The notes under the pieces: model-generated
Seen by the model: only the letters and a program-made list of their open reading frames with translations
What the model was told of the DNA's origin: nothing
Databases searched by the model: none
Assembly (NCBI RefSeq): GCF_024359545.1
Contig: NZ_JAKQZG010000012.1
Coordinates: 1-64,000 of the forward strand
DNA length: 64,000 nucleotides
Reading direction: 5' to 3'
Source of the DNA: Jiella marina
Lineage (GTDB): Bacteria > Pseudomonadota > Alphaproteobacteria > Rhizobiales > Rhizobiaceae
Shown here: positions 722 through 16,057 of the stretch, piece by piece
Layout of the letters: the number at the start of each line of letters is the position of its first letter
How positions within the stretch are numbered: position 1 is the first letter of the stretch
Translations under genes and position numbers: made by a program

Positions 722-1243
722 ATGGGGTACTGGAAAGACGAACATGAACTCAAGCGTGGACGCATTCTCCTGCCGGACGGGCAGTGGGTTCGCCCGGTTG
801 GGCCGATACTTAAGATTTGGGACGGCGATATCTGGTGCGATCCGAAGGAAGAAATCGATCAACCCACCTATGAACAGGGCCTCGCCCGCTTCATGGAGAC
901 GGTCGTGACGGCAGGCTATTGCGGACGCTCGGGAAGTGCGCGGTTTAATTTCGTGTATCAAAACGTCACTGACCGGGCGAAGGGAGACCTCTTCAATTGG
1001 GCGGAACGGTTTATCGACCGGGATGCGTTGCCGCGAAACCCGGAAGATGAAGTATCGATCTGCGACCGGTTCGGCTGCGCTCCGCGACGGACCATGAACC
1101 GACTGAAGGAGCGGATCGACGCGCCCAGGGAATATTTGCTTCAGGAGCGCGGTCTTTGGCGCATCTGCTATCTCTCGCTGGCGAGGAAGTGCTTCCTTGC
1201 TCGCATCGGGTATCCGGGCTTCTGCGTGCGGCAGATTTCCTAA
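722..1243 (+). CDS. Hypothetical protein, 173 aa
   Basis: An AGGAGA ribosome-binding site at about 711-716 selects the ATG at 722 over more upstream in-frame starts, giving 173 residues. The protein is rich in Trp, Arg and Asp with several Cys near the C-terminal half (ICDRFGCAPRR, ICYLSLARKCF). It has no clear membrane segment. It stands alone, followed by a terminator-like hairpin. No family is recognised; it probably belongs to the element's accessory cargo. Confidence 0.6.
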   Translation: MGYWKDEHELKRGRILLPDGQWVRPVGPILKIWDGDIWCDPKEEIDQPTYEQGLARFMETVVTAGYCGRSGSARFNFVYQNVTDRAKGDLFNWAERFIDRDALPRNPEDEVSICDRFGCAPRRTMNRLKERIDAPREYLLQERGLWRICYLSLARKCFLARIGYPGFCVRQIS

Positions 1244-1274
1244 GGTGTCTGGACTGACCGTTTAACAGGTCTTG

Positions 1275-1303
1275 GACCGGGCCGATCGTTGATTGGCCCG
1301 GTC
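1275..1303 (+). terminator. Terminator-like hairpin after 722-1243
   Basis: The arms 1275-1286 and 1292-1303 form a 12-bp stem (nine GC-rich pairs GACCGGGCC/GGCCCGGTC, extended by GAT/ATT with one G-U pair) around a five-base loop. A moderately T-rich stretch follows (GCTTCGTTCTC). The position, about 30 bases after a stop codon, fits an intrinsic terminator, although the T tract is poor. Confidence 0.55.
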
Positions 1304-1592
1304 GCTTCGTTCTCAGCTTGCTGTCCGTCCGGCCATTGGCATCGCGCATCACGATGTTCCTGTTCCCGCGAGTGGCCAGTTTGTGGATCAAACATCACGT
1401 TGTGGCAGGCAAGGCGGCACACACCGAAGACATGCTTGCCGACTGCGCGCTTCCGCCGGGGTTCGCGAGAACGCATTGGGGGTGCTGCTTCGAGCGAGTC
1501 GAAATCGAAGATAACGCCCGGACCGGGCCCTCAAGCATTCGCTGCCTCCTTCAAAGCCGGGGTCTCACCACCCCTAGGAAGGAGACAAGGAA
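1304..1592. other. Intergenic stretch without a supported gene
   Basis: Between the hairpin and the start at 1593 there are only overlapping short frames typical of GC-rich DNA. None has a convincing ribosome-binding site or protein-like composition. The last 20 bases carry the strong ribosome-binding site (AAGGAGACAAGGA) of the next gene. A promoter is likely here, but no good -35/-10 pair stands out. Confidence 0.5.
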
Positions 1593-2846
1593 ATGACTAC
1601 TGACGACAAGCCTAAGAAACCCGACCGGCTGAAGAAGCCCGAGCGCGCGCCCTATCTCAGTGCCGTTCTGGTGATCCTGCCGCTGATTTCCGCGATTATG
1701 CTTTGGACCGCGCTGCGCAATCTCGGCACCGCCGAGAGCGGGTTCACTGGCTTTCTGAAAACGCTGCTGCTGCCGCTGGCCGCGTTCATCGTGGCCTATG
1801 CGGTCTACCGCATGGCGATTGAGAAGGCGGCGACGCTCTTCTCCGTCGGTTATGTGTTGGCCGGGATCGTCGGACTCGTTTCGATTCTGATCGTCGGGGC
1901 GAGCCTCTTCATGGGGACGTTACCGGGCCTGATCATCAAGCAGGTGGAAGAGCGCCGACTGCAGGTCTACGCCTCCGAGACCGCGCGTTATTCCGACGTC
2001 CGGACGGCCCACGGAGCGCAGGCGGGGCGCGTCGTCCCGGTCGTCATGGCGATCGCTGCCGACCTCGATACCAAGACGGAATGCGAAAAGACGAGTTCCT
2101 GCGTGTCACTGCGCGGTTCCGGCGGCTATGGCAGCACGACACGGACGCTGGAAGCGCTCGCCAGCCGTGCGGCGGCGGTGCGGGACGAGGCTGCAGCCGG
2201 CCTCCAGCAACGTGATGCGGTGCGCGGCGAACTCGCGGATCATCTGGCGCGGATGGGAACTGTCCTCGCGGATGAAGACCGGGACGTCTGGGAGCGCCGG
2301 ATCGCCTTGCGGGAACTCGATGCCGGTCTCGAACAGCTGCTGAACCGTCTGGACGAAGCTGTTCCGACGGCCATGCTCGCCGCCTATGCCGGGGAGTTGC
2401 GGACAGGCGTGAACATTCCGGACCGGCCCGACGTCACGGCCCGCGTCAATGCTCTGCTGGCGGGCTATGCCGCGAACCTCGAAACTGTTCTGGGTCAGGC
2501 TGGAACCGGGGCCATTGAGCGGCCCGCGTTCCCGCCGCGCACAGGGGCCATCCAAACCTTGTCATACGTCGGCGAATTCGCACCGGTGGCATTGCTTGTT
2601 CTCAGTGTAGAGCTCGTATTTCCCCTGGTTCTTTGGGTTTATACGGTCCTCTCACTCCTGTGGGCACGGTATCAGGCCAACCCGGATGACAACGGCCCGG
2701 CGCCGCGCGAGAGCGATTTCGACGATCTAACCAATCTCCGCCCCATCGACGTGCCGAAGCGTCGCCGCGTGCGGAAACTCGTCGAATCCGACGACGATCA
2801 GGACGTAGATGACACGCCGCCGGTTCGCCGGGGCCGCGCCCGCTGA
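1593..2846 (+). CDS. Multi-spanning membrane protein with large loop, 417 aa
   Basis: The ATG follows a strong AAGGAG site. The N-terminus is Lys/Pro-rich and cytoplasmic in appearance, then hydrophobic segments occur near residues 22-43, 53-75 and 82-112. A long charged, helix-prone region follows (about 120-325). Another hydrophobic segment lies near 330-357, and the tail has a basic KRRRVRK cluster. The layout suggests an inner-membrane protein with a large extracytoplasmic coiled domain. It is the first gene of a row leading to a VirD4-like ATPase, so a role in DNA transfer or its envelope scaffold is inferred. No family name is recognised. Confidence 0.7.
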   Translation: MTTDDKPKKPDRLKKPERAPYLSAVLVILPLISAIMLWTALRNLGTAESGFTGFLKTLLLPLAAFIVAYAVYRMAIEKAATLFSVGYVLAGIVGLVSILIVGASLFMGTLPGLIIKQVEERRLQVYASETARYSDVRTAHGAQAGRVVPVVMAIAADLDTKTECEKTSSCVSLRGSGGYGSTTRTLEALASRAAAVRDEAAAGLQQRDAVRGELADHLARMGTVLADEDRDVWERRIALRELDAGLEQLLNRLDEAVPTAMLAAYAGELRTGVNIPDRPDVTARVNALLAGYAANLETVLGQAGTGAIERPAFPPRTGAIQTLSYVGEFAPVALLVLSVELVFPLVLWVYTVLSLLWARYQANPDDNGPAPRESDFDDLTNLRPIDVPKRRRVRKLVESDDDQDVDDTPPVRRGRAR

Positions 2847-2868
2847 GGCGATATTCGCGAAACTGCTT

Positions 2869-2895
2869 GATCGGGGGGCCTATGGCCCCCCGATC
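2869..2895 (+). terminator. Perfect 12-bp hairpin after 1593-2846
   Basis: GATCGGGGGGCC (2869-2880) pairs perfectly with GGCCCCCCGATC (2884-2895) around a TAT loop, 22 bases after the preceding stop codon. The following bases (TGCGTTTGG) are only weakly T-rich. It probably terminates or attenuates transcription between the large membrane protein and the T4CP gene row. Confidence 0.6.
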
Positions 2896-3035
2896 TGCGT
2901 TTGGCGTGAGGGTGGCCGGATGGCGCATTGCCAATTCCGCCCGAACCCCGCCGACGAGTGCTGACGAAACCTCCTAGCGATGACTAGCCGGGCAATGCGC
3001 GCGGTTTTTTTCAGTCATCAGGAAAGGCATTCGTC

Positions 3036-3578
3036 ATGCCCATTGATTTCTCCTCAATTCCCATTTCCGGCGGCGTCCTCGTCGCTGGAGCACTTTGGGC
3101 CGGGGCCTCCGCCTATGCCCTTGGTCCGCTGGTCGCCGAACGTAGCGCCGAACAAATCGGCTGGACGGCCGATTGCGAGCAGCGGATCGCGGCCGACATC
3201 AAGACCCGCCAGCCTGCACCGGAGCCCGGTTTCGCTTTCCAGTGCGGTGATCTGCTCGGCGGTCTGCCGGGTGAGCAGCGCCAGTTCCTCGACATGTTCG
3301 GCATGGGTATCGCCTGTGACGCCATGGATCGGGCGCAAGCCCGCAAACGCCATCTCGCGGAACTGAAGCGCCAGCGCATCGAACGCGCTGCTGCCGAGGC
3401 CGGATCGCGCTGCGCATGTGCCGTCTCGCACATGACGATGGTGAAGCGCTGGGACTTTGCCCTCGCCGCCGGGACCGCGCGGACAGTCGTCCCGTCGTCC
3501 GTCACCAATCTCCGCGCCTCGCTGCTCGAATCCCTCGCCAGCCCCGCCTGCGCGGGCGTCGCGAAACTGGAGGACTGA
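3036..3578 (+). CDS. Hypothetical exported or membrane-anchored protein, 180 aa
   Basis: The ATG is preceded by AGGAAAGG. A hydrophobic stretch near residues 11-32 could be a signal anchor. The remainder is hydrophilic and helix-prone, with six Cys residues (for example TADCEQR, FQCGDLL, GIACDAM and a CACAV pair) that could form disulfides in the periplasm. It ends three bases before the next ATG, so it is part of the compact gene row 3036-5945. No known family is recognised. Export and a role in the transfer complex are inferences from topology and context. Confidence 0.65.
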   Translation: MPIDFSSIPISGGVLVAGALWAGASAYALGPLVAERSAEQIGWTADCEQRIAADIKTRQPAPEPGFAFQCGDLLGGLPGEQRQFLDMFGMGIACDAMDRAQARKRHLAELKRQRIERAAAEAGSRCACAVSHMTMVKRWDFALAAGTARTVVPSSVTNLRASLLESLASPACAGVAKLED

Positions 3579-3581
3579 TCC

Positions 3582-3956
3582 ATGATCTTCGGCACTGTTT
3601 CCATCGACGGCCACGCCGTCCACACACACCGGGATACCTACCGGATCGCCGATCTCAGCGTGTTCTCGGTCCGTCGTCCGTTTCTCGCCGTCGGCGCGAC
3701 AATCGCAGCGGGGACGGCCGCCTTCGGTGTCGCCCATGCCGATCTGCTCTATCCGTCCGAATGGCTGGCGATCGTCGGCGTCTCGGTCGTTTCGCTCGCT
3801 TGCGGCTTGACCCTTGGGCAGCTGAAGCTTCTGAGCCGCGATCTGCGCGGCACGGAACTGACCGGTGCCATCTACGGCACCTATGGCCATCTCAACCGCG
3901 TGCGCAAAGAGGTGTTCTCCGTCCAGCTCAGCCTGCAGACGGGAGGCCGACCATGA
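3582..3956 (+). CDS. Small membrane protein with two TM segments, 124 aa
   Basis: The N-terminal 30 residues are polar, then two hydrophobic segments occur (about residues 32-52 and 58-80). The remainder is a basic, helix-prone cytoplasmic tail (LKLLSRDLRGTELTG...). It starts just after the stop of the upstream gene and overlaps the next start by 4 bases, so translation is probably coupled. Related in layout to the next gene. The function is unknown; context suggests an inner-membrane subunit working with the ATPase encoded two genes downstream. Confidence 0.65.
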   Translation: MIFGTVSIDGHAVHTHRDTYRIADLSVFSVRRPFLAVGATIAAGTAAFGVAHADLLYPSEWLAIVGVSVVSLACGLTLGQLKLLSRDLRGTELTGAIYGTYGHLNRVRKEVFSVQLSLQTGGRP

Positions 3957-4261
3957 TCCCCGGCGGTCCCAATCTCCGCGCCATCATCCGCATCAATGTC
4001 CAGATCGTCTTCGGTCTCGTCTTCGCGGGCGTGGCGTGGCTCTCCTGGCAGAATGTTTCGGTTCTCTGGTGGCAACTCGGCCTGATCGCGATCCTCACCG
4101 CTGCTGCGGCGGTGGGGCTGCTCACGACGGCCGTCGGCGAGATCAAAGGCTTCGTGATGCGCGACCTGCGCGTCAACGCCTATCGTCGCCAGGGCGCGAC
4201 GCCGAAGTCCGATGGCCTCGTTTCCTCCGACGCGCTGCGCAGCGAGGGGGTCATCAAATGA
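3953..4261 (+). CDS. Small two-TM membrane protein, possible detached T4CP anchor, 102 aa
   Basis: The ATG at 3953 follows GGGAGG and overlaps the previous stop. The product has two hydrophobic helices (about residues 13-33 and 38-62) joined by a short loop containing SWQNVSVLWWQ, then a basic cytoplasmic tail. This is the topology of the N-terminal anchor of VirD4/TraG coupling proteins. The downstream VirD4-like gene begins within this gene's stop codon (ATGA) and lacks such helices. I infer that the two genes together encode a coupling protein split into anchor and motor. No sequence family is recognised. Confidence 0.65.
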   Translation: MIPGGPNLRAIIRINVQIVFGLVFAGVAWLSWQNVSVLWWQLGLIAILTAAAAVGLLTTAVGEIKGFVMRDLRVNAYRRQGATPKSDGLVSSDALRSEGVIK

Positions 4262-5691
4262 GTTGGCCCTTCGGAAAATCCAAGCCGGTTCCGGCGACTG
4301 CCAGAGCCATCATCGATCCCGAGGGGCGGCGGCTCCTCGGGACGACGTTCGCAGGTGAGCCGATCTGGGCGCCAAAAGGACATTCGCTCCTTTTAAGTGC
4401 AAATGGTGGTGGAAAAACCACGTGCGGTGCGATGGTCTGGCTCTATTCTTTGCTGTCCTCGGTCAGTCGCCCTGCGATACTGGCATTCGATAGTAAAAAC
4501 GGCGAAATGGCTATGCAGGCCGCGCCGATGATTGCCGAGATGGGCATCCCTGTCGGAGTCATCGACGATACATTCGTGCTGGGCCCGGACTTTCCCTTCC
4601 GGGTTTCCCTGAACCCGTTCGGCGGGATCACCTCGGTCTATCAGCGGAACCGGGAAGACCTCGTCTTTTCCTCGGAAAACGCAAACCAGGCGCTCATTCC
4701 CGATCCACCGAATGATGCACGCAATCAGTACTTTAGGGATCAGCCGAGAACAATCATAGAGTTTGCGACCTACGCGCTGTTGAAGCGCAATGCCCGGCTC
4801 GCCACGCCCGGCGGCGTCTGGGGGCTGATTTCAAATCCGAAGATGCTCCTCAAGGTCGCGGCAGTCGAAGCCGACGAAGGCGAAGACATGCTCCAGGCTC
4901 TTGCCCTCGACGTGCTCGGCATGGCCGATCACGAGCACTGGCCGCAGCATAGGAGCGCTGCTCTGAAGTCTATGAGGGTGTTCGCCGCCGGATCGCGGCT
5001 CCATCGTGCCGGTCTCGATGCGGACACCACCCATGCCGATCTGATCCGCCAGCGTGCCGTTATCTTCCTCGTCGGTCCGCAGGCGTTCATGAACCGAATC
5101 GGCAACTATTACGCGCTTCATATCCTAAGCTTCTGCGAGGCGCTGTATGGTGGCGCGGGGCCGCTCACCATGATCGCGGACGAGTTCACGAATGCACCTC
5201 TGAAGCCACTGGTTGAATCGCTCACAACGCTACGCGCTTTTGGGGCAGAGTTCCACGGCATTGCGCAGAGCCGCTCGGAGATCGAACGACGGTTCGGACG
5301 CCTGGAAACCCAGACGATCGAAGAGAACGCCATCATCAAGCAGTGGTTCGGCTTCTCGTCCTTCGACGAAGCGGCCCGCGTCTCGAAGGCGATGGGCGAA
5401 GAGATCGTCGTCTCATCGAACTTGAGCGCCGGTCATCAGGATGTGCGGCTGCAAAGCACGTTCCAGACCAGCAAGGCGCCGGTGATGTCTGGGGCTGAAC
5501 TGATGGCAATGCAGCGCGGTCATTTTCTGTATCATGCCAAGGGTCTTGGCTTCGGCACGGGCTTGATGACGGGCATGCAGAATATCGATCCGTTCTGCCA
5601 CATGATCCGCCCCAATGATCTGGAAGGTGGTCGCCTGACGCCCGATCCGAAGTTCGTCTTCCGGATGCCGGGCCGGGAGGGCGAGCAATGA
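4258..5691 (+). CDS. TraG/VirD4-like type IV coupling protein ATPase
   Basis: This 477-residue protein has a P-loop (SANGGGKTTCG, about residues 48-58) and a Walker B-like strand ending in a DEF motif (PLTMIADEFTN, about residues 303-313). It then has the QSRSEIERRF segment typical of TraG/VirD4 ATPases, which pump DNA or protein into type IV secretion channels. Family members usually have about 550-700 residues with two N-terminal membrane helices. This one starts directly in the soluble part, and a separate two-helix protein is encoded immediately upstream with an ATGA overlap. The P-loop is unusual in having three consecutive Gly before Lys. Neither a relaxase nor VirB genes are visible in the window. 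Confidence 0.8.
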   Translation: MSWPFGKSKPVPATARAIIDPEGRRLLGTTFAGEPIWAPKGHSLLLSANGGGKTTCGAMVWLYSLLSSVSRPAILAFDSKNGEMAMQAAPMIAEMGIPVGVIDDTFVLGPDFPFRVSLNPFGGITSVYQRNREDLVFSSENANQALIPDPPNDARNQYFRDQPRTIIEFATYALLKRNARLATPGGVWGLISNPKMLLKVAAVEADEGEDMLQALALDVLGMADHEHWPQHRSAALKSMRVFAAGSRLHRAGLDADTTHADLIRQRAVIFLVGPQAFMNRIGNYYALHILSFCEALYGGAGPLTMIADEFTNAPLKPLVESLTTLRAFGAEFHGIAQSRSEIERRFGRLETQTIEENAIIKQWFGFSSFDEAARVSKAMGEEIVVSSNLSAGHQDVRLQSTFQTSKAPVMSGAELMAMQRGHFLYHAKGLGFGTGLMTGMQNIDPFCHMIRPNDLEGGRLTPDPKFVFRMPGREGEQ

Positions 5692-5945
5692 TCGTCCTTC
5701 GCTATCTCTCGCTCATTCTGTGGGTCGCCGCGCCAGCGGCGGCCCTCGGTATCTATGCCGGCTGGGGCGTGCCGCATGTCATCTTTCAGTACACCTACCG
5801 GGACAACGGCCATCCGCACGACCTGACCGTCCCCCGACATTATCTGACCTGCACCTTCGTCGGTCCCTACGGTGCCATCACCGTGGCGGCGGAAAGGGCA
5901 AAGTGCGGGTGGGTTCGCTTCTTCAAGGATAGTGCGGATCAGTGA
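5688..5945 (+). CDS. Small single-TM protein, 85 aa
   Basis: The ATG overlaps the T4CP stop codon (ATGA). Residues 4-25 are hydrophobic (signal peptide or single anchor), and the remainder is short and polar with two Cys (LTCTFVG and AKCGWVRFF) that may form a disulfide outside the membrane. It is the last gene of the tightly packed row from 3036. No family is recognised; co-translation with the ATPase suggests an accessory subunit or export-pathway component. Confidence 0.6.
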   Translation: MIVLRYLSLILWVAAPAAALGIYAGWGVPHVIFQYTYRDNGHPHDLTVPRHYLTCTFVGPYGAITVAAERAKCGWVRFFKDSADQ

Positions 5946-6190
5946 GGCGCGCCGGGCGGATGCCAGATCCGATGCTTCAAGCGGAAGATTTGGGTCAGCT
6001 CCGTCCGCGCCATGCCTTTCAAGACGTCGAGCACAAGGTCCTGCTCGACCTCGCGCCGCGCGATTTGCGCGTCGCAGAAAGCCCTGTCCTGCAGGACGAG
6101 CTGATACGGCCCAACCGCCTTCCAGAAAGCAGCATAGTCAAGCGGTTCGAGCCACTCGGTCACGTCTTCGATGTGTTCAAAGGCAGGCAT
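5939..6190 (-). CDS. Hypothetical protein, 83 aa, convergent
   Basis: The minus-strand frame beginning with ATG at 6190 codes for MPAFEHIEDVTEWLEPLDY and onward. The composition is acidic and aromatic, protein-like, with predicted helices. The opposite-strand frame over the same bases looks random. A GGGA motif precedes the ATG. A TTG farther upstream (6226) is possible but has no better signal. It converges with and slightly overlaps the end of the preceding plus-strand gene. Function unknown. Confidence 0.55.
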   Translation of the reverse strand: MPAFEHIEDVTEWLEPLDYAAFWKAVGPYQLVLQDRAFCDAQIARREVEQDLVLDVLKGMARTELTQIFRLKHRIWHPPGAPH

Positions 6191-6252
6191 GATCCCAGCG
6201 TACCAAAAGGCCGGATTCCAACGCAAATTTGTGACGAGAAGGAGCGCTTTCC

Positions 6253-6732
6253 TTGAGCGACGATCTGAGAAGCGAACTTGCCAAAGCGTTCGATGACGCC
6301 GTGCGCAAACACGAAGCGAAGGTCCTCAAAACCTCGCAGGATTGGCGCGCTTACCGCAAGATCGAGGAACGACACACTCGCGCCCGCGAAGATGCCGAGA
6401 GGCGCTACCGCGACGAATACGAGACGCGCGTCGAGAAGGCCCGGCGCGACATCATCGCGGAAAAGGCGACACCGGCCCACGAAATCCGCCCGCCTTTCGG
6501 AACCGATGAGTTCAAGAAGGAAGATATCGAGCTTCAGGCACACCGGCGTGTCCAGAAGGATCACGAGGTCATGCTGACGGGCATCGATCAGGCCGAGACG
6601 GCCGAAAAGGAAGCGTTGCTGGCCGAAGCCGCCGAACGGCGCAAGCTCGACGGTCAGTCAAAAGACCAGTTCGCGAAAGCCAGCGATCGCCGCTCCGGCC
6701 GCGATCGCCGCATCAGGCCGTCATTCAGCTGA
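6253..6732 (+). CDS. Coiled-coil hypothetical protein, 159 aa
   Basis: The product is very rich in Glu, Lys, Arg and Ala and should form long helices or coiled coils almost throughout (for example KIEERHTRAREDAERRYRDE). The start is a TTG at 6253 preceded by AAGGAG at about 6239-6244. There is no signal peptide or membrane segment. It is followed after 30 bases by another helical orphan gene. No family is recognised; similar charged proteins often sit beside relaxase or partition genes, but that is only context. Confidence 0.65.
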   Translation: MSDDLRSELAKAFDDAVRKHEAKVLKTSQDWRAYRKIEERHTRAREDAERRYRDEYETRVEKARRDIIAEKATPAHEIRPPFGTDEFKKEDIELQAHRRVQKDHEVMLTGIDQAETAEKEALLAEAAERRKLDGQSKDQFAKASDRRSGRDRRIRPSFS

Positions 6733-6762: not shown

Positions 6763-7362
6763 ATGACTGAAGACGACAGCCGTATCACTGCCGCCCGGGA
6801 AAGCTTCACCGGCCGCAATCTCACCGGCAGCCAGTTCGACGAGGCGCACATGATCTGCGGGATCATCAAGCGCAGAATTGAGAAGGCCGGTTCCTTCCGT
6901 GAAGCGCTGACCGATTACGCTCATGCCTTCGCCCGCTCGGAGCGCTTCGACAGCGTGCAGGCCGAGACGGTTCTCCGCGACATGTTCAAGGCACTGAACG
7001 GCCAGACCATGAACGCCATGCGCGAGGGCCTCAAAGAGCGCGACGCTGAAATCGAGCGATCGCCGAGCGAAGACATTCACCTCCTGGCCCGCTCGATCCC
7101 GGATCGCATCAAGGACGGCCCGACCATGCCGTTCTACCGCGCCTATGACGAGGCAGGGCTGGAGCTCTCGCAAAAGCTCGGCATCACCGAGCAGACCGCC
7201 AAAGCGCTCATGAAGGAGACGTTCTATCAGGCCGAAGGCATGGACCTCTACGAGTTCTGCAAAGAAGTGGAGGAGGCCTATCACCGGCCCGTCCGCGAAG
7301 CCGAGCGCGGTGCCCGGAAGGCCGAAGCTGTGGAGAAGCGTCAGTTTTCGCCAACCCGCTAA
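6763..7362 (+). CDS. Hypothetical soluble protein, 199 aa
   Basis: The ATG is preceded by GAGAAAGGGAG. The protein is charged and mostly helical, with no membrane segment. It contains an extended region (SIPDRIKDGPTMPFYRAYDE, about 111-130) followed by a helix with LGITEQTAKALMKETF, which could be a small DNA-binding-like helical bundle. It lies between the T4CP row and the recombinase, inside the element. No family name can be given from the sequence alone. Confidence 0.65.
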   Translation: MTEDDSRITAARESFTGRNLTGSQFDEAHMICGIIKRRIEKAGSFREALTDYAHAFARSERFDSVQAETVLRDMFKALNGQTMNAMREGLKERDAEIERSPSEDIHLLARSIPDRIKDGPTMPFYRAYDEAGLELSQKLGITEQTAKALMKETFYQAEGMDLYEFCKEVEEAYHRPVREAERGARKAEAVEKRQFSPTR

Positions 7363-7518: not shown

Positions 7519-7809
7519 ATGACGCATCCCCCCATATCACCAGACAGCACAGCGAAGCCGGACCTTTCCCTCTCCGTCGATTGGGAGCTCTACGCCTCCT
7601 ATCTCGAAGAGTCGGACGCCTCGGATGAAGACAAGCAGGCGCTGATCAAAAGCCTCTTTGCCATCGTCCTTGGTTTCGTCGATCTCGGCTTCCGGCTCAA
7701 TCCGGTCCAGCACTGTGGCGGTGACGGGGGCGAGGAGGCGCTCCGCCAAATCATTGCAGAGCATGCGCAAGAATCGGGTAAACTGCCCCAAGGAGATGCG
7801 CATGAGTGA
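7519..7809 (+). CDS. Small protein upstream of the recombinase, 96 aa
   Basis: The product is acidic and helical (SVDWELYASYLEESDASDEDKQALIKSLF is split by short turns) with a C-terminal GGDGGEEALRQ segment. It overlaps the start of the serine recombinase by 8 bases, so the two are probably translationally coupled. Small acidic genes in this position can act as recombination directionality factors, but nothing in the sequence proves this. An AGAAGGAG site precedes the ATG. Confidence 0.65.
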   Translation: MTHPPISPDSTAKPDLSLSVDWELYASYLEESDASDEDKQALIKSLFAIVLGFVDLGFRLNPVQHCGGDGGEEALRQIIAEHAQESGKLPQGDAHE

Positions 7810-9964
7810 AGACCAGCAAATGAAGGCGGTGATCTACTGCCGAGTATCCTCAAAAGGCCAGCAGGATGAAGGGCATGGCCTCGAAAGTCAGGAGACCCGC
7901 TGCCGTCAGTATGCGGCGCTAAAAGGCTATGAAGTCACCGCCGTTTTCCCTGACACGATCAGCGGCGGCGGTGACTTCATGAAGCGCCCCGGCATGAAGG
8001 CGCTTCTCGCCTTTCTCGATGCTCAGCCGGACGAGCGCTTCGTCGTCATCTTCGACGATCTGAAGCGCTTTGCTCGTGACACGCGGTTCCACTTCGATCT
8101 GCGCGACGCCTTCCGGCAACGCAAGGCGGTTATCGAATGCCTGAACTTCCGCCTCGACGACACGCCGGAAGGCGAGTTCATCGAGACGATCCTGGCGGCA
8201 CAAGGCGCGCTGGAGCGCAAGCAGAATGGCCGGCAGGTGGCGCAGAAGATGCGCGCCCGCATGGAAAACGGCTTTTGGACATTCAATTCCCCTGTCGGGT
8301 ATGTCTTCAAAACGATCAAAGGCCGGGGAAAAGTGCTAGTGCCGAGCGAGCCGCTCGCCGGCATCGTCCGCGAGGCCTTTGAAGGCTATGCCGCCGGGCG
8401 CTTCCAGTCACAGGCGGAGATCAAGCGCTTCTTCGAGAGCTTCCCGGAGTTTCCGCGCAATAAGGCGGGCGGAATCACGTTCCAGCGCGTCACCGACCTC
8501 CTTACCCAGCCGCTATACACCGGCTATATCTGCAACGAGACTTACGGCCTCAACTGGCTCAAGGGCCAGCACGAACCGCTGATCTCGATCGAGACCTTCG
8601 ACAAGGTCCAGGAGCGCCGCACAGGCCCGGCCAAACTGCCGATCCGCAAGGACATCGGTGACGACTTCGTCTTGCGCGGCTTTGTCGTCTGCGCGGATTG
8701 CAGTGTGCAGCTTCGCAGCTGCTGGACCACCGGCAACACCAAGCGCTATCCATATTATCTCTGTCAGACGAAGGGCTGCGAGAGCTACGGCAAGTCGATA
8801 CCCCGCGATAAGATCGAGGGCGACGTCGGACAACTCGTCCGGACCCTTGAGCCGAGCCAAAAGCTGTTCGACCTCGCCGCGCGGATGTTCCGCGATGCCT
8901 GGGCGCGGCGCGCCGCCCAAGCCGCCGAGATGGTCAAATCCGGCAAGGAGCAGCTACGCACTATCGACAAGCGGATCGACGGACTTCTCGGCCGTGTCGT
9001 CGAGGCAACCAATCCGGCGGTGATCAAAACCTATGAAGACAAGATCAGCGAGCTCGAACGTGATCGCTTGAGGCTGCGTGAACAAGTCGCCGGATTCGTG
9101 CCGGAGGATGGCAGGCTGGAAAATCTGCTAGAACTCTCCCTCCGCTTCCTCGCAAACCCTTGGAAACTCTGGGAAACGGGCAATATCACAGCCCGCAGAA
9201 TCGTGCTCAGATTGGCCTTCGTGGACCGTCTGGAATACGACCGGAAAACGGGTCCTAGAACCCCAAAAACCACCTTACCATTCAAGGTGTTAGAGGGGTT
9301 TTGCACTCCGCTTTTGGGAAATGGTGCGGGTGGTCGGACTCGAACCGACACTCTGTCACCAGAACCGGATTTTGAGTCCGGCGCGTCTACCGATTCCGCC
9401 ACACCCGCAGTCGCTTCGAAGCCTGTCGCCAAGACGCGTTGCGTCTCGTCCGAGCTTCGTCATCGGCGCATCCCCATCGCACAGTCGAGGCCGTGTCGTC
9501 CAGGGTTTATTCCGGCCCGCCCCTGCGCGCTGGCTCAGCGCTCGATCCGTGGCAGCAGAACCTTTGCGGACAGTCCGCCGAGTTCGGAGCGTGAGAGTTC
9601 CAGCCGGCCGCGATATTCTCCCGTGACGTCGCGCACGATGGAGAGCCCCAGCCCGCTGCCCGGAGTCGCCTCGTCCAGGCGCTTTCCGCGTTTCAGGGCT
9701 TCCCGGATTTCCGCGCCGGTCAGGCCCGGGCCGTCATCCTCGATCGTGACGGCGAATCGTTCGGCCTCTTCGGCGCGGCAGGTCAGTCGAATGCGCGACT
9801 TCGCCCATTTTCCGGCATTCTCCAGAAGGTTGCCGACCACTTCCTCCAGATCCTGGCGTTCGCCGGCGAAGACGATGTCGTCGGCCGCCTCGGCAACGAA
9901 CTCGACATCCAGATGCGGATTGAGCTTCGCGATGACGCGGACGATCCGCTCCAGGACGGGATGA
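7802..9964 (+). CDS. Large serine recombinase, read through the tRNA boundary
   Basis: The N-terminal resolvase domain has the catalytic Ser16 in YCRVSSKGQ, then FDDLKRFARDT with the catalytic arginines. A recombinase domain and a zinc ribbon (CADC near residue 298, then two more Cys around CQTKGC) follow, then a coiled coil at about 375-440. The ATG at 7802 is chosen for its AAGGAG spacing. The conserved protein ends near 9320. There is no stop at the element edge, so the frame continues as antisense of tRNA-Leu (GGRTRTD) and of the sensor kinase, adding about 210 random-looking residues up to 9964. In the excised circle the C-terminus would be different. Confidence 0.85.
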   Translation: MSEDQQMKAVIYCRVSSKGQQDEGHGLESQETRCRQYAALKGYEVTAVFPDTISGGGDFMKRPGMKALLAFLDAQPDERFVVIFDDLKRFARDTRFHFDLRDAFRQRKAVIECLNFRLDDTPEGEFIETILAAQGALERKQNGRQVAQKMRARMENGFWTFNSPVGYVFKTIKGRGKVLVPSEPLAGIVREAFEGYAAGRFQSQAEIKRFFESFPEFPRNKAGGITFQRVTDLLTQPLYTGYICNETYGLNWLKGQHEPLISIETFDKVQERRTGPAKLPIRKDIGDDFVLRGFVVCADCSVQLRSCWTTGNTKRYPYYLCQTKGCESYGKSIPRDKIEGDVGQLVRTLEPSQKLFDLAARMFRDAWARRAAQAAEMVKSGKEQLRTIDKRIDGLLGRVVEATNPAVIKTYEDKISELERDRLRLREQVAGFVPEDGRLENLLELSLRFLANPWKLWETGNITARRIVLRLAFVDRLEYDRKTGPRTPKTTLPFKVLEGFCTPLLGNGAGGRTRTDTLSPEPDFESGASTDSATPAVASKPVAKTRCVSSELRHRRIPIAQSRPCRPGFIPARPCALAQRSIRGSRTFADSPPSSERESSSRPRYSPVTSRTMESPSPLPGVASSRRFPRFRASRISAPVRPGPSSSIVTANRSASSARQVSRMRDFAHFPAFSRRLPTTSSRSWRSPAKTMSSAASATNSTSRCGLSFAMTRTIRSRTG
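9322..9408 (-). tRNA. tRNA-Leu (anticodon CAA)
   Basis: Read on the minus strand, the acceptor arms GCGGGTG and CACCCGC pair exactly, followed by A and an encoded CCA (9322-9324). The anticodon stem CCGGA/TCCGG encloses the loop CTCAAAA, giving anticodon CAA. A variable arm (about GTTCTGGTGAC) and a GGTTCGAGTCC T-arm are present, as expected for a class II leucine tRNA. Its 3' end is the attachment site of the element to the left. Confidence 0.95.
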
Positions 9965-12175: not shown

Positions 12176-15100
12176 TCATCCCGGCCGAGAAAAGATCGCA
12201 TTGCGAGCCGTGCCGGCCCCCCAGACCGGGCTGATCTGTGCGACCGAGACTGCCAGGACAGTGGGAAGCGCACCAAAGGCGGACATCTGGTCATCGGCCG
12301 AAACGACAAGGCCGGCTTGCATCGATTCCGTCGTGACCGCGTTCGCACCCCCATCACCAATTGTGACACGGTAGCGCTCGGCCTCCTCGCCGAGCGGAAC
12401 ATCCCGTGCCGACCAATTGTCGCCGCCCACGCGCGTGCGCCTGATCCAGGACAGGGTCACGCTGCCACCCTCTGCGAAGGCCGCACGCAGATGCACGGGC
12501 GAGAGCGGCCGCACCGAACGCTCGCCCAACGCCTGCGTGAGGGTCAGGGAAGCCGGATTGTCCAGGCTGCGGCCGAAAGGGGCGACGACGAAGTCGAGCG
12601 CCCGGCCCACCTCGCCGGCCTCGATGCCGAGGGGCAGGCAGGCCTCGTCGAGAAGCGCAAAGAGCGCTCCCGGCGAGGCGCCGGCCGCCATCGCGTCCTC
12701 CGTGCCGCCCTGGGCGCGAAGCAGGCCGCGCAATCTGTATTCTCCCAGCGCCACTTCTTCCGCCGTCTCGAACTGCAAAACCTCCAGGGCGCCATTGTCG
12801 CAAAGAACCGCGCAGAGGTTGCCACCGGCATAAAGATGAGCGCGCGAAACCGAAGACAGGGTTCCCCGCGGCAACGCGACGTCGAGCGCGTTCATCCGGT
12901 CCAAACGACCCTCGGGCCCAGGACCGAGCGGCGCGGTCAGGCGGCCGAGCGTGCCGCGCCTGGTGACCCGCAATCTTTGCCGCAGCGTGCCGTCATCGGC
13001 GAGCGTGTCGATCTCGTAGCCCGGGAACGGGCTGGCGCTGAGGGCGACCCGGGCGCCCTCAGCCCCGGAGCCGCCCGGCGGCAGCGGCAGATCGAGAAAC
13101 GCCGCGAAGGGGCGTGAGGCCAAAGGCGGACGTGGATTCGACCCGACCACAGGCGCGCCCATGTCGATCCCGCCGCCGCGCCGTGGCGGAATCCGCCGCG
13201 CCGTGACGCGATGGGCCTCGCCTGTCTCGATCCGGATGACCAGCCATTCGCCTGGCCGGTCGCCGATCGTGACGGCATCACCCGCTTCGAGGACTAGGTC
13301 CGCGGCCTGCAGCGCAAAGGACGCCGTCTCGGAGGCGATCCCGCTTTCGCTCAGCATACTCGCCGCGAAGCTCTGTGCTGCCGCTTCGTCCATGACGGCC
13401 GGCAGGCTGACGATCTCTTGGCGCGGCGCCGGAACGCTCGCCCGGGTCGCCTCGGCGCTCCCGGTCTGATAGGCCCGCCAGGGGTCGAGAAAGTTCAGTG
13501 CCACGGCGTCCACCGTCTCGGCCGCTTCCGAGCGCCGCAATTCGACCAGCGGCTGATCGGCCTCGTCGACAAAGGTCGCGAGACTGCGCTCCGGCGAGAC
13601 CCGCGCGAGCGAGCGGGCGACCAGCGTGCCGTCGGTGACATGGGCGATCGCACCGGTCAGGCGGAAAAGGCTCTCCAGCGAATCCCGCGCCGAGGCCGGT
13701 GCGTTCTCGACCCAGCCGCCCAGCGTGGCTTCGAGCCCGGTCAGATCAATGTCGGCGATCTCGTGCGCGCCAAGGATCTCGGCAACCAGCCGGTCGAGCG
13801 GTGCATTCGCCAGGCGGCCGCTCAGCCAGTGGCCGAGGCGCCAATTGTCCCCGTCGCTCCAGACGCCGGTGCGGGTGGGAAAGGCCGGAAACGGGCGCGC
13901 ATCCCAGGTCCAGACATGAATCGCATCCGGGTCGACCATACGGCCGCCATAAACCGTCGAGACCGGGTTTGCCGCCTCATCGAACGCCTCGTCTTCCGGG
14001 TCCCAATAGGCGAGATGGGTTTCGAGAAAGCGCCTCTGGACGAGATCGTCCCGCCCGACGGTCGAGAAATGCGGGATGTCGCTTTCCGACGATTTCGGAT
14101 CGACGAAGAGGTTCGGCTGATTGGCGCCCTTGTCGATCGCCGGACAGCCGAGTTCGGCGAGCCAGATGGGCTTGGCCATGGGCTGATAGGTGGTCGGGGT
14201 GGCCAGTTCGGTGCCGTTCCGACGTTCGTGGTGCGGGTTCGACCACCAGCCGACGAGATCCTTCGGCCGGAAGACCCAGGGCTTTCCGTGGGCGCCATCG
14301 CTGATCGGCGCACGGTTCCTGAGCGCGCGATCCGTCTCGCTCGGATAGTACCAGTCGAAATACTCGCCGCCGGCGATGCCGGCCCGCAAGCCGTTGCGAT
14401 CGTAGATCGAGGGAGCGTCCGGGTCGCTGTCGCCGTCGCGCCAGTCGGTCAGGGGCAGGTAGTCGTCGATGGCGATCACGTCGATCGCCGGAGACGCCCA
14501 GAGCGGATCGAGGTTGAAGAAGACGTCGCCCGAGCCGTCGTCGGGGTGATAGCCGAAATACTCGCTCCAATCGGCCGAATAGGATACGACCCCTTCGGGC
14601 ATCAGCGCCTTCACGGCTTCGGCGATCGCGATCAGCCCCTCGACGAACGGAAAGCGGCCTTGATCGTCGCGCACCCGCGTGAGCCCGCGCATCTCGGAAC
14701 CGATGAAGAAGGCGTCCACACCGGCTTTCGCCGCCAGATGCGCCTGATGGAAGATCATGCGGCGGTAGGACCATTCGTTCGGTCCCGTGTAGAACAGTCG
14801 TCCGCCGACCCAGGAGAAGTCGTCCGGCGTGGCATCGCCCAAGAAACTCTCGATCGCCTGCCGTGCGGCGGCCGTGCCATCCGCGCTGCCGGCCGCGCCG
14901 ACGGCGATATCGAGCGTGATCCGCCCGCGCCAGGGGAAAGCCGCCTGCTCGGTTCCGCCATAAGGGTCCGGCAGACCGTTCCCTTCGCCGATCTCCATGA
15001 GGATGAAGGGATAATAGGTGACCTTCAGTCCCCGCGCCTTCAGATCGGCGATCGCCCGCAAGACGCCCTGGTCGCTCGGCGTTCCGCCATAGGCCGGCCC

Positions 15101-16057
15101 GCCGTCGCGATAGGCGATGCGCTCGGCGGAGGCCCGGCCGAGCGGCCCGACATGCCAGTCCTCGGTCTCGTCGCGATCGTCGATCTCCACCTTGGGCTTG
15201 AACCGGCAGGATCCGGCCCGAAGGTCGTCGCCGAACCAGGCGACCACCAGGGCCGCGCGTTTCAGCGCGGGGCAGAGCGCCGTCAATTCGTTCATGGAAG
15301 CGGTGAAATCGCTCTCGCCATGGAGGATATTCCGGTTCAGAAGCGCATCTTCGCCTTCCGAGATCCGCTCGCGCACGACCTCGGGATCGAGGCCGTGTTC
15401 GCTCGCGCCGGGAATGACGGTGATCGCCCGGATCTGGCCTTCCAGCTCGCCGATCGGCCGCAGAACCTCGCAACTGATCTGCGGAATGCGATTGCCGTAG
15501 CGTTCGAGCGCCAGCCGCTCGAAGACGATATAGGCGAGGCCGCGATAGGCCGGCGCATTGCCCGCGCCCTGCCTCGCCTCGATCAGCGGATCGGGATCTT
15601 GCGTCTCGTTGCCGAGATAGACGCGGAAATTCACCTCGGTGAGGTCCATTTCCTCGCCATCGGCCCAGATCCGGCGGATGCCGGCGATCGGCCCCTCGCA
15701 GAGGCCAAGGGCGACATTGCCGAAATAGCTGTAGGTGGTGACCTCCACAGTCGGCTGAGCCGACTTGCCACCCTGGCGTTCGGTGTTGACCTCCTCCTCG
15801 AATCGGGTGGTCCAGATCACCTGCCCGGCGATCCGCGCGGTGCCGTAGATGCGGGGAATGCCTGTGCCTTCTTCCGCCGCCATGATGCGCAGGCTTTCGA
15901 GCCGCGCGCCTTCGATCCGCCGGGTCTCGCCGAAGAGAGACTGGTCGATCGCCGCGCCCGCGAGCGCACCGGCCGCACGGCCGAGAACCGCGCCGAAGGG
16001 ACCGCCGATGAAGCTGCCGAGCACCGTGCCGGCAGCCTGCAGAACAAGAGTCGCCAT
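12176..16057 (-). CDS. GTA tail-tip protein with TIM-barrel domain (g15)
   Basis: This 1293-residue protein starts with a Gly/Ala-rich hydrophobic stretch (AGTVLGSFIGGPFGAVLGRA), as in RcGTA Rcc01698. The central part is a glycoside-hydrolase-like TIM barrel (for example VDAFFIGSEMRGLTRV, VIAIDDYLPLTDW and WLAELGCPAIDKG), followed by phage-tail and receptor-binding regions. The length is typical for the family. It forms the host-facing tip of the GTA tail. It is the last gene of the cluster, 3 bases after g14. Confidence 0.93.
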   Translation of the reverse strand: MATLVLQAAGTVLGSFIGGPFGAVLGRAAGALAGAAIDQSLFGETRRIEGARLESLRIMAAEEGTGIPRIYGTARIAGQVIWTTRFEEEVNTERQGGKSAQPTVEVTTYSYFGNVALGLCEGPIAGIRRIWADGEEMDLTEVNFRVYLGNETQDPDPLIEARQGAGNAPAYRGLAYIVFERLALERYGNRIPQISCEVLRPIGELEGQIRAITVIPGASEHGLDPEVVRERISEGEDALLNRNILHGESDFTASMNELTALCPALKRAALVVAWFGDDLRAGSCRFKPKVEIDDRDETEDWHVGPLGRASAERIAYRDGGPAYGGTPSDQGVLRAIADLKARGLKVTYYPFILMEIGEGNGLPDPYGGTEQAAFPWRGRITLDIAVGAAGSADGTAAARQAIESFLGDATPDDFSWVGGRLFYTGPNEWSYRRMIFHQAHLAAKAGVDAFFIGSEMRGLTRVRDDQGRFPFVEGLIAIAEAVKALMPEGVVSYSADWSEYFGYHPDDGSGDVFFNLDPLWASPAIDVIAIDDYLPLTDWRDGDSDPDAPSIYDRNGLRAGIAGGEYFDWYYPSETDRALRNRAPISDGAHGKPWVFRPKDLVGWWSNPHHERRNGTELATPTTYQPMAKPIWLAELGCPAIDKGANQPNLFVDPKSSESDIPHFSTVGRDDLVQRRFLETHLAYWDPEDEAFDEAANPVSTVYGGRMVDPDAIHVWTWDARPFPAFPTRTGVWSDGDNWRLGHWLSGRLANAPLDRLVAEILGAHEIADIDLTGLEATLGGWVENAPASARDSLESLFRLTGAIAHVTDGTLVARSLARVSPERSLATFVDEADQPLVELRRSEAAETVDAVALNFLDPWRAYQTGSAEATRASVPAPRQEIVSLPAVMDEAAAQSFAASMLSESGIASETASFALQAADLVLEAGDAVTIGDRPGEWLVIRIETGEAHRVTARRIPPRRGGGIDMGAPVVGSNPRPPLASRPFAAFLDLPLPPGGSGAEGARVALSASPFPGYEIDTLADDGTLRQRLRVTRRGTLGRLTAPLGPGPEGRLDRMNALDVALPRGTLSSVSRAHLYAGGNLCAVLCDNGALEVLQFETAEEVALGEYRLRGLLRAQGGTEDAMAAGASPGALFALLDEACLPLGIEAGEVGRALDFVVAPFGRSLDNPASLTLTQALGERSVRPLSPVHLRAAFAEGGSVTLSWIRRTRVGGDNWSARDVPLGEEAERYRVTIGDGGANAVTTESMQAGLVVSADDQMSAFGALPTVLAVSVAQISPVWGAGTARNAIFSRPG

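Follow-up and report, generated by a model that had tools for sequence, protein, structure and literature searches.

The first 64,000 nucleotides of contig NZ_JAKQZG010000012.1 of Jiella marina, referred to here as the window, carry a type IV coupling protein (T4CP) that is encoded in pieces. We consider it very likely that the region is the T4CP module of an integrative mobilizable element (IME), in which a once single-chain VirD4-type protein was broken at its domain borders into a membrane anchor, a soluble ATPase and, probably, a third small protein, p85. The parts are homologous to one chain, their adjacency is constant, they are set in a genomic island, and VirB4 and VirB10 are not found nearby. 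The gene run at 3582-5945 is organized as follows.

3582..3956, + strand: p124, a two-helix membrane protein
3953..4261, + strand: anchor, a two-helix membrane protein of 102 aa, corresponding to the N-terminal membrane domain plus juxtamembrane segment of a T4CP (fused T4CPs match its profile at their N-terminus)
4258..5691, + strand: soluble VirD4/TraG-type ATPase of 477 aa, without membrane helices (Pfam and fold match)
5688..5945, + strand: p85, one membrane helix plus a short two-cysteine domain, probable third part of the T4CP (profile match in locus L154)

The anchor and ATPase frames share an ATGA at 4258, as stated in the original prediction, which was made from the letters of this stretch alone. 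The run is in fact longer than the two joined genes described there: three ATGA overlaps, at 3953, 4258 and 5688, chain p124, the anchor, the ATPase and p85.

The ATPase scores 56.6 bits against TraG-D_C (PF12696, cut-off 22), 30.4 against T4SS-DNA_transf (20.1) and 25 against TrwB_AAD_bind (20.5). It had been described as a protein without membrane helices that begins almost at its P-loop, and both statements hold. No 19-residue stretch exceeds 1.35 on the Kyte-Doolittle scale, and the Walker A motif (NGGGKTT) occupies residues 49-55. Residues G50, K53, T54, D308 and E309 of Walker A and B are invariant in 27/27 aligned ATPases; this alignment (A4) holds 27 of 34 planned rows, since L034, with a stop codon within the range, and L036, L050, L054, L055, L076 and L082 were left out. 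A single-sequence phmmer search against the PDB gave no match up to E 1. A profile of 15 ATPase homologues matched Cag5 of H. pylori (E 5e-11) and, weakly, TrwB (E 0.13).

The predicted structure of the ATPase (pLDDT 89, pTM 0.86) matches Cagbeta with Z 26.7 (415 residues aligned, 3.5 A) and TrwB with Z 24.0 to 24.9 (366 to 372 residues, 3.8 A). Ranked below these are the C-domain of DndH (Z 23.3), VirB4 and the Legionella coupling complex (21.0), and HerA (19.7 or less). The model has helices at 122-264, which may correspond to the all-alpha domain of T4CPs, the alignment to Cagbeta being that of the whole model. Model residues 18-454 superpose on TrwB 104-502. Because residue 18 falls on TrwB 104, and TrwB was solved without its first 70 residues, the modelled ATPase chain starts past the membrane domain. 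The membrane domain that a T4CP usually carries in the same chain is missing from the ATPase, and is encoded by the neighbouring gene. Judged by predicted fold, Pfam domain and setting together, the ATPase is a T4CP; by fold T4CPs come first, with a small margin over DndH.

The anchor has hydrophobic stretches at residues 10-28 and 43-61. Its predicted structure (pLDDT 83) is a two-helix hairpin, with helices at 8-33 and 40-80, plus a short third helix. The two helices are thus as originally described, whereas the basic cytoplasmic tail is not, residues 61-102 being only mildly basic (8 K/R vs 5 D/E). In hhalign comparisons with five single-chain T4CPs, a profile of 35 anchors (A2) matched the N-terminal part, residues 61-142 of L019, with probability 77 and E 2e-5, and in L019 the ATPase profile takes up the adjoining stretch, residues 145-590 (E 1e-53). 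A p124 profile, used as a control, gave no match to the T4CPs (probability 0.3). The two profiles therefore map end to end on single-chain coupling proteins, which bears out the proposal that anchor and ATPase together equal the usual single T4CP. By eye, the conserved anchor tail 'PKSxxLASxDxLKxAGMI' corresponds to a 'GSARFSNxxELKxxG'-like stretch of the fused proteins. By sequence comparison, the anchor is the missing T4CP N-terminus.

Homologous loci in which the two genes are one, named earlier as a check, do exist. Of 385 genomes of the class searched by profile, 40 had a match, and in two loci, both in the same kind of island, one ORF holds the anchor and ATPase profiles end to end: L125/L153 (anchor domain E 3e-7) and L126/L154 (3e-9). 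In the L154 frame the p85 profile (A6) also matches, at the C-terminal residues 630-694 (E 5e-6 in 396,501 residues). Since p85 is part of the same chain here, the split is probably three-way; the coupling protein is split in two, and with p85 probably in three. By profile, p85 was found in 56/58 loci.

These 58 loci are the window and 57 from a scan of genome contigs. By profile search, the anchor gene is directly 5' of the ATPase in 50/58 loci. The eight remaining loci (L045, L058, L061, L074, L080, L084, L087, L088) are without the 5' part of the ATPase, contig or gene. It should be noted that the anchor profiles were built from these loci (one from 8 anchors; A2 from 35, of which 34 from the 58), and the count shows presence rather than independent discovery. 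Many ATPase homologues without an adjacent two-helix gene would have spoken against the split; the gene is there wherever the 5' part of the ATPase is present (50/50 loci), and in none of these 50 loci of the split clade are anchor and ATPase fused. An exact ATGA is found at 36/39 p124-anchor, 25/50 anchor-ATPase and 41/56 ATPase-p85 junctions. Of the anchor-ATPase junctions, 42/50 overlap in some form, 7 are gapped and 1 is without a called start. These counts use the start codon closest to the junction, a choice that favours overlaps.

In a tree of 76 ATPase domains, all 54 split ones form one clade among the fused ones (54/54, support 100). For this tree 81 domains were offered; L047, L080, L084, L085 and L086 were too short, and L087 and L088 were not included. 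A more careful tree of 34 rows, a subset of the 76 rooted on ordinary T4CPs, again places the split ATPases (22/22) in one clade (100/100). The fused pair L153 and L154 is sister of this clade (joint clade 100/96), and the next branches are also fused, one with weaker support (87/76). Because all split ATPases form one clade among fused ones, the split arose once, and the fused state is probably the older one, as judged from these trees. Long branches meet in the 76-row tree (L153 with L154; L025 with L026), and the long branches L153, L154 and L157 are to be read with caution. The 76-row tree also shows the ATPase family spread over many alphaproteobacterial families.

The 34-row tree omits another type of split (L102, L022, L025, L026). 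L102 is encoded on contig C18 of the same J. marina genome. It is a T4CP-like ATPase of 513 aa (4674-6215) without an N-terminal membrane helix, and it adjoins a MobA/MobL relaxase (1185-3122, - strand). The gene before the ATPase (4127-4657) is a separate one and encodes 176 aa with three hydrophobic stretches. This split differs in kind, as the juxtamembrane motif is kept on the ATPase side. L022 looks like L102, and the 76-row tree groups L025 and L026 with it.

ATPase matches (E up to 1e-6) are found in 25/297 genomes of the order, weaker ones being other T4CPs, and there was none in the 12 other genomes listed of the window's own family. Such a patchy spread is as expected for a mobile element. 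A plasmid search with the ATPase (E up to 1e-5) and the anchor (E up to 1) gave 0 matches in 72,556 records, from which records of the own genome were possibly left out. Among viral contigs 561 candidate stretches were obtained and none was confirmed, and PHROGs gave just three weak matches, all to families without an assigned function. The single-contig genome G080 holds four such ATPase loci, at C1 1097210, 1708064, 3517658 and 4631748, and in one of them the ATPase is in two pieces. The ATPase is also found on contigs binned as Gammaproteobacteria, Bacteroidetes and Planctomycetaceae (L039, L082, L088). Binning error is likely, because the tree places L039 and L082 within the alphaproteobacterial clade.

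The other genes of the island in the window, with counts of the loci that their clusters or matches span, are as follows.

1593..2846, + strand: p417, a membrane protein with several hydrophobic stretches (cluster spans 32/58 loci)
3036..3578, + strand: p180, one hydrophobic stretch plus a cysteine-containing domain (cluster spans 38/58 loci; weak matches in L153 and L154)
5939..6226, - strand: small opposite-strand gene inside the gene run, 83-95 aa, with 'EWLEPLDY' (matches in 42/57 loci)
6253..6732, + strand: p159, conserved (family in 7/10 stretches compared)
6763..7362, + strand: p199, conserved (cluster spans 48/58 loci)
7519..7809, + strand: p96, conserved, directly before the recombinase (cluster spans 47/58 loci)
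7802..9964, + strand: large serine recombinase with Resolvase, Recombinase and Zn_ribbon_recom domains (matches in 49/57 loci)
9322..9408, - strand: tRNA-Leu (CAA), at the right end of the island, on the host side (tRNA scan)

The clustering of all loci merged the ATPase with its neighbours via overlapping frames, and its ATPase cluster count was not used. We did not find a Pfam or NCBIfam match above cut-off for p417. The fused loci L153 and L154 have a similar setting: a serine recombinase overlapping a tRNA gene, p96, p124, p180 and p85, with weak matches for p180 and p124. Thus, p124 is also present in islands with a fused T4CP. Outside the island, at 12176-16057 on the - strand, the window has a large ORF that is presumably similar to the large tail protein known from gene transfer agents.

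In the window, as in 15/15 loci scanned, these being selected from the 57, the recombinase frame overlaps at its end with a tRNA gene of the opposite strand. Lacking a stop codon ahead of the tRNA gene, the frame continues across it in antisense into host DNA, and the C-terminus of the recombinase therefore depends on the integration site. In five relatives checked the frame reaches into or past the tRNA as well.

In relatives, a NikA/MobC-like gene is found upstream together with a VirD2-like relaxase (PF03432), which may or may not have a RecD-like helicase part. Of 21 split ATPase loci (17 genomes), 19 share contig and strand with such a relaxase, located 13 to 89 kb upstream. One of these relaxases is a fragment (G298) and one is cut by the contig edge (G302). 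In the two loci without a relaxase (G299, G301) the ATPase is within 13 and 9 kb of the contig end. This count excludes two further ATPase matches, a fragment of 389 aa (G309) and a divergent frame of 573 aa (G297).

Genes for a mating channel were searched in genomes picked for carrying the island, which are not a random sample (14 for VirB4; 18 for VirB10 and TraC_F_IV). VirB4 (PF03135) is found in 6/14 genomes, and on the ATPase contig in 0/14. VirB10 (PF03743) is found in 7/18 genomes, on the ATPase contig only in the single-contig G080, 260 kb away, and is absent altogether from the other 11/18. TraC_F_IV is found in 0/18 genomes.

As the window is the first 64 kb of its contig (C4), the element is cut at base 1. 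Gene family 22, next to the C23:1 end of contig C23 of the same genome, and family 17, the first gene of the window, adjoin in Notoacmeibacter and Stappia, and for this reason we suggest that C23 probably continues the island, which would then be about 36 kb in total. The relaxase on C23 is the one of this genome closest to the Notoacmeibacter relaxase (69%). We searched for attachment sites as the longest word that the tRNA end has in common with the 3 kb preceding MobC. This word was longer than in all 100 shuffles in 2/6 elements (G000, 14 bases; StapS, 12), and in the other 4/6 its length was reached by 21 to 95 of 100 shuffles. A candidate attachment core is a 14-base repeat at window 9298-9311 and on C23, approximately 0.2 kb upstream of mobC (0/100 shuffles as long).

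Cargo was examined in L047, L104, L107 and L115. Pfam matches are ParB_N (L047), ArdA (L107) and ArdC with Sel1 repeats (L115), and patatin-like genes ('LDGGG') were noted by eye. This suggests that the cargo has anti-restriction, perhaps defence functions.

We suggest that the parts work together in the following way. The ATGA stop/start overlaps suggest that they are translated in a coupled manner. The anchor tail and p85 would hold the ATPase at the inner membrane, and the ATPase would form the usual ring. MobC and the VirD2-like relaxase, both of the element itself, would ready the relaxase-bound strand, which the ATPase would then receive and pump into a channel provided by a helper conjugative system. 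The use of a helper channel is proposed because the element is without VirB genes. Complex formation, ring formation, the substrate and the helper are predictions.

Several observations weigh against a T4CP that was split in this way. The hhalign link between anchor and T4CPs is moderate (probability 77), and hmmsearch with the anchor profile matches 2/33 other T4CP loci (L125, L126) and none of L019-L024. A fold search with the anchor hairpin gave, among the matches listed, only common helical hairpins, which says little at such a small size. The anchor-ATPase overlap is not universal, there being none at 8/50 junctions. With Z 23.3, DndH, which is not a T4CP, comes close to TrwB in its match to the ATPase model. 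The absence of VirB was judged by contig in draft genomes, and contig ends truncate several of the islands. The relaxase of the window's genome sits on another contig (C23:25159-26535, reading towards C23:1). As for p85, it is found in-chain in one clear fusion (L154) and in a weak C-terminal match in L157 (E 0.03, domain E 0.1). It is a separate gene after the fused anchor-ATPase in L153, and also next to L159, a single-chain T4CP without a match to the anchor profile. From these four cases p85 is either a third part or a constant partner, and it may be a partner that became fused in L154 and not an original domain.

The anchor could be an unrelated partner, VirB3-like for example, that sits beside a naturally soluble ATPase, in which case nothing was split. 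This would agree with the weak conservation of the anchor (mean column identity 37%), the uninformative hairpin search, the sparse hmmsearch matches just mentioned and the presence of p124 as a second small two-helix protein adjoining it. We regard it as unlikely, since the anchor profile matches the N-termini of single-chain T4CPs at the right place and the p124 profile does not, and since fused homologues sit in the same kind of island. It is improbable, too, that the ATPase is a translocase of the HerA, FtsK or DndH kind, with a role in defence or island maintenance and not in conjugation. Relaxase and MobC are found in the same islands, TraG-D_C is present in the ATPase, the anchor is homologous to T4CP N-termini, and Cagbeta and TrwB rank first by fold (Z 24.0 to 26.7), if with a small lead over the defence protein DndH. 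The match to DndH, those to HerA proteins (Z 16 to 19.7), some of them in anti-phage complexes, the anti-restriction and perhaps defence cargo, and the lack of VirB genes nearby are what speak for such a translocase.

Broken copies of the ATPase do exist, with an in-frame TAA in G303, an in-frame TAG in G306 and the two-piece ATPase in G080, and the split could accordingly be read as decay, the island dying and its T4CP gene frameshifted. We consider this very improbable, because the 50 loci in which the 5' part of the ATPase is present all share one break point, the Walker residues are invariant in the 27 aligned ATPases, and the split ATPases form one well-supported clade that is conserved across many alphaproteobacterial families. 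A different possibility, to which we give only a small chance, is that p417, p180, p124, anchor, ATPase and p85 make up a minimal DNA-transfer machine of their own, without VirB4 or a VirB core, in which the split T4CP and its small membrane partners would form the gate. It is considered because 11/18 island-carrying genomes are without any VirB10. The T4CP module of a mobilizable element, with its coupling protein broken at domain borders, remains our preferred reading.

A two-protein coupling protein has been proposed for TraI/TraJ of pIP501 (PMC4981023; also PMC7434980, PMC12857230), and a review accepts 'T4CP lacking TMD' as a subfamily (PMC7434980). The arrangement is thus unusual, as originally claimed, but it has a precedent, and the two parts are probably three in view of the p85 match in the L154 chain. 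In pIP501 a VirD4-like ATPase without a membrane domain is likewise combined with a small membrane protein, encoded directly upstream and proposed to be the anchor. pIP501 differs in being a Gram-positive conjugative plasmid with its own type IV secretion system (T4SS), whereas we describe Gram-negative islands in which genes for mating pair formation (MPF) were not detected; this comparison with TraI/TraJ is one of descriptions. The probable third part, p85, the gene overlaps and the fused homologues that show fission also set the island T4CP apart from what is described there.

With VirD4, TraG, TrwB and Cagbeta the split T4CP shares the ATPase fold, TraG-D_C, the Walker motifs and, in relatives, a relaxase in the same element, but its membrane domain is in a separate gene. 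The membrane domain of T4CPs is reported to be important for ring formation and docking (PMC7434980). In TraG-TraJ pairs, too, the T4CP works with a membrane protein encoded adjacent to it, but there the T4CP is itself a membrane protein (PMC7434980). Mobilizable elements with their own T4CP are already known (PMC5704250, PMC8627217), and they resemble our island in having an integrase, a relaxase, an own T4CP, no MPF genes and a tRNA site. Unlike them, our island has a serine recombinase that reads into the tRNA gene, and a split T4CP within a conserved operon of membrane proteins. Among the literature matches listed, partial texts from a collection that covers few subscription journals, we found neither a split T4CP outside pIP501-type systems nor a description of this island family. 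As far as that literature shows, what is new is this family of Gram-negative islands, along with the probable third part and the fused relatives showing fission.

The island family brings a relaxase, a coupling protein and an integrase, and a mating channel was not detected. Surveys based on plasmids could miss it, since the plasmid collection searched holds no match. Communication between anchor and motor is hard to test in a T4CP made of a single chain. Here the protein is cut at the border between the two, and both arrangements occur in one island family. The anchor, the motor and p85 can thus be deleted, swapped and fused separately.

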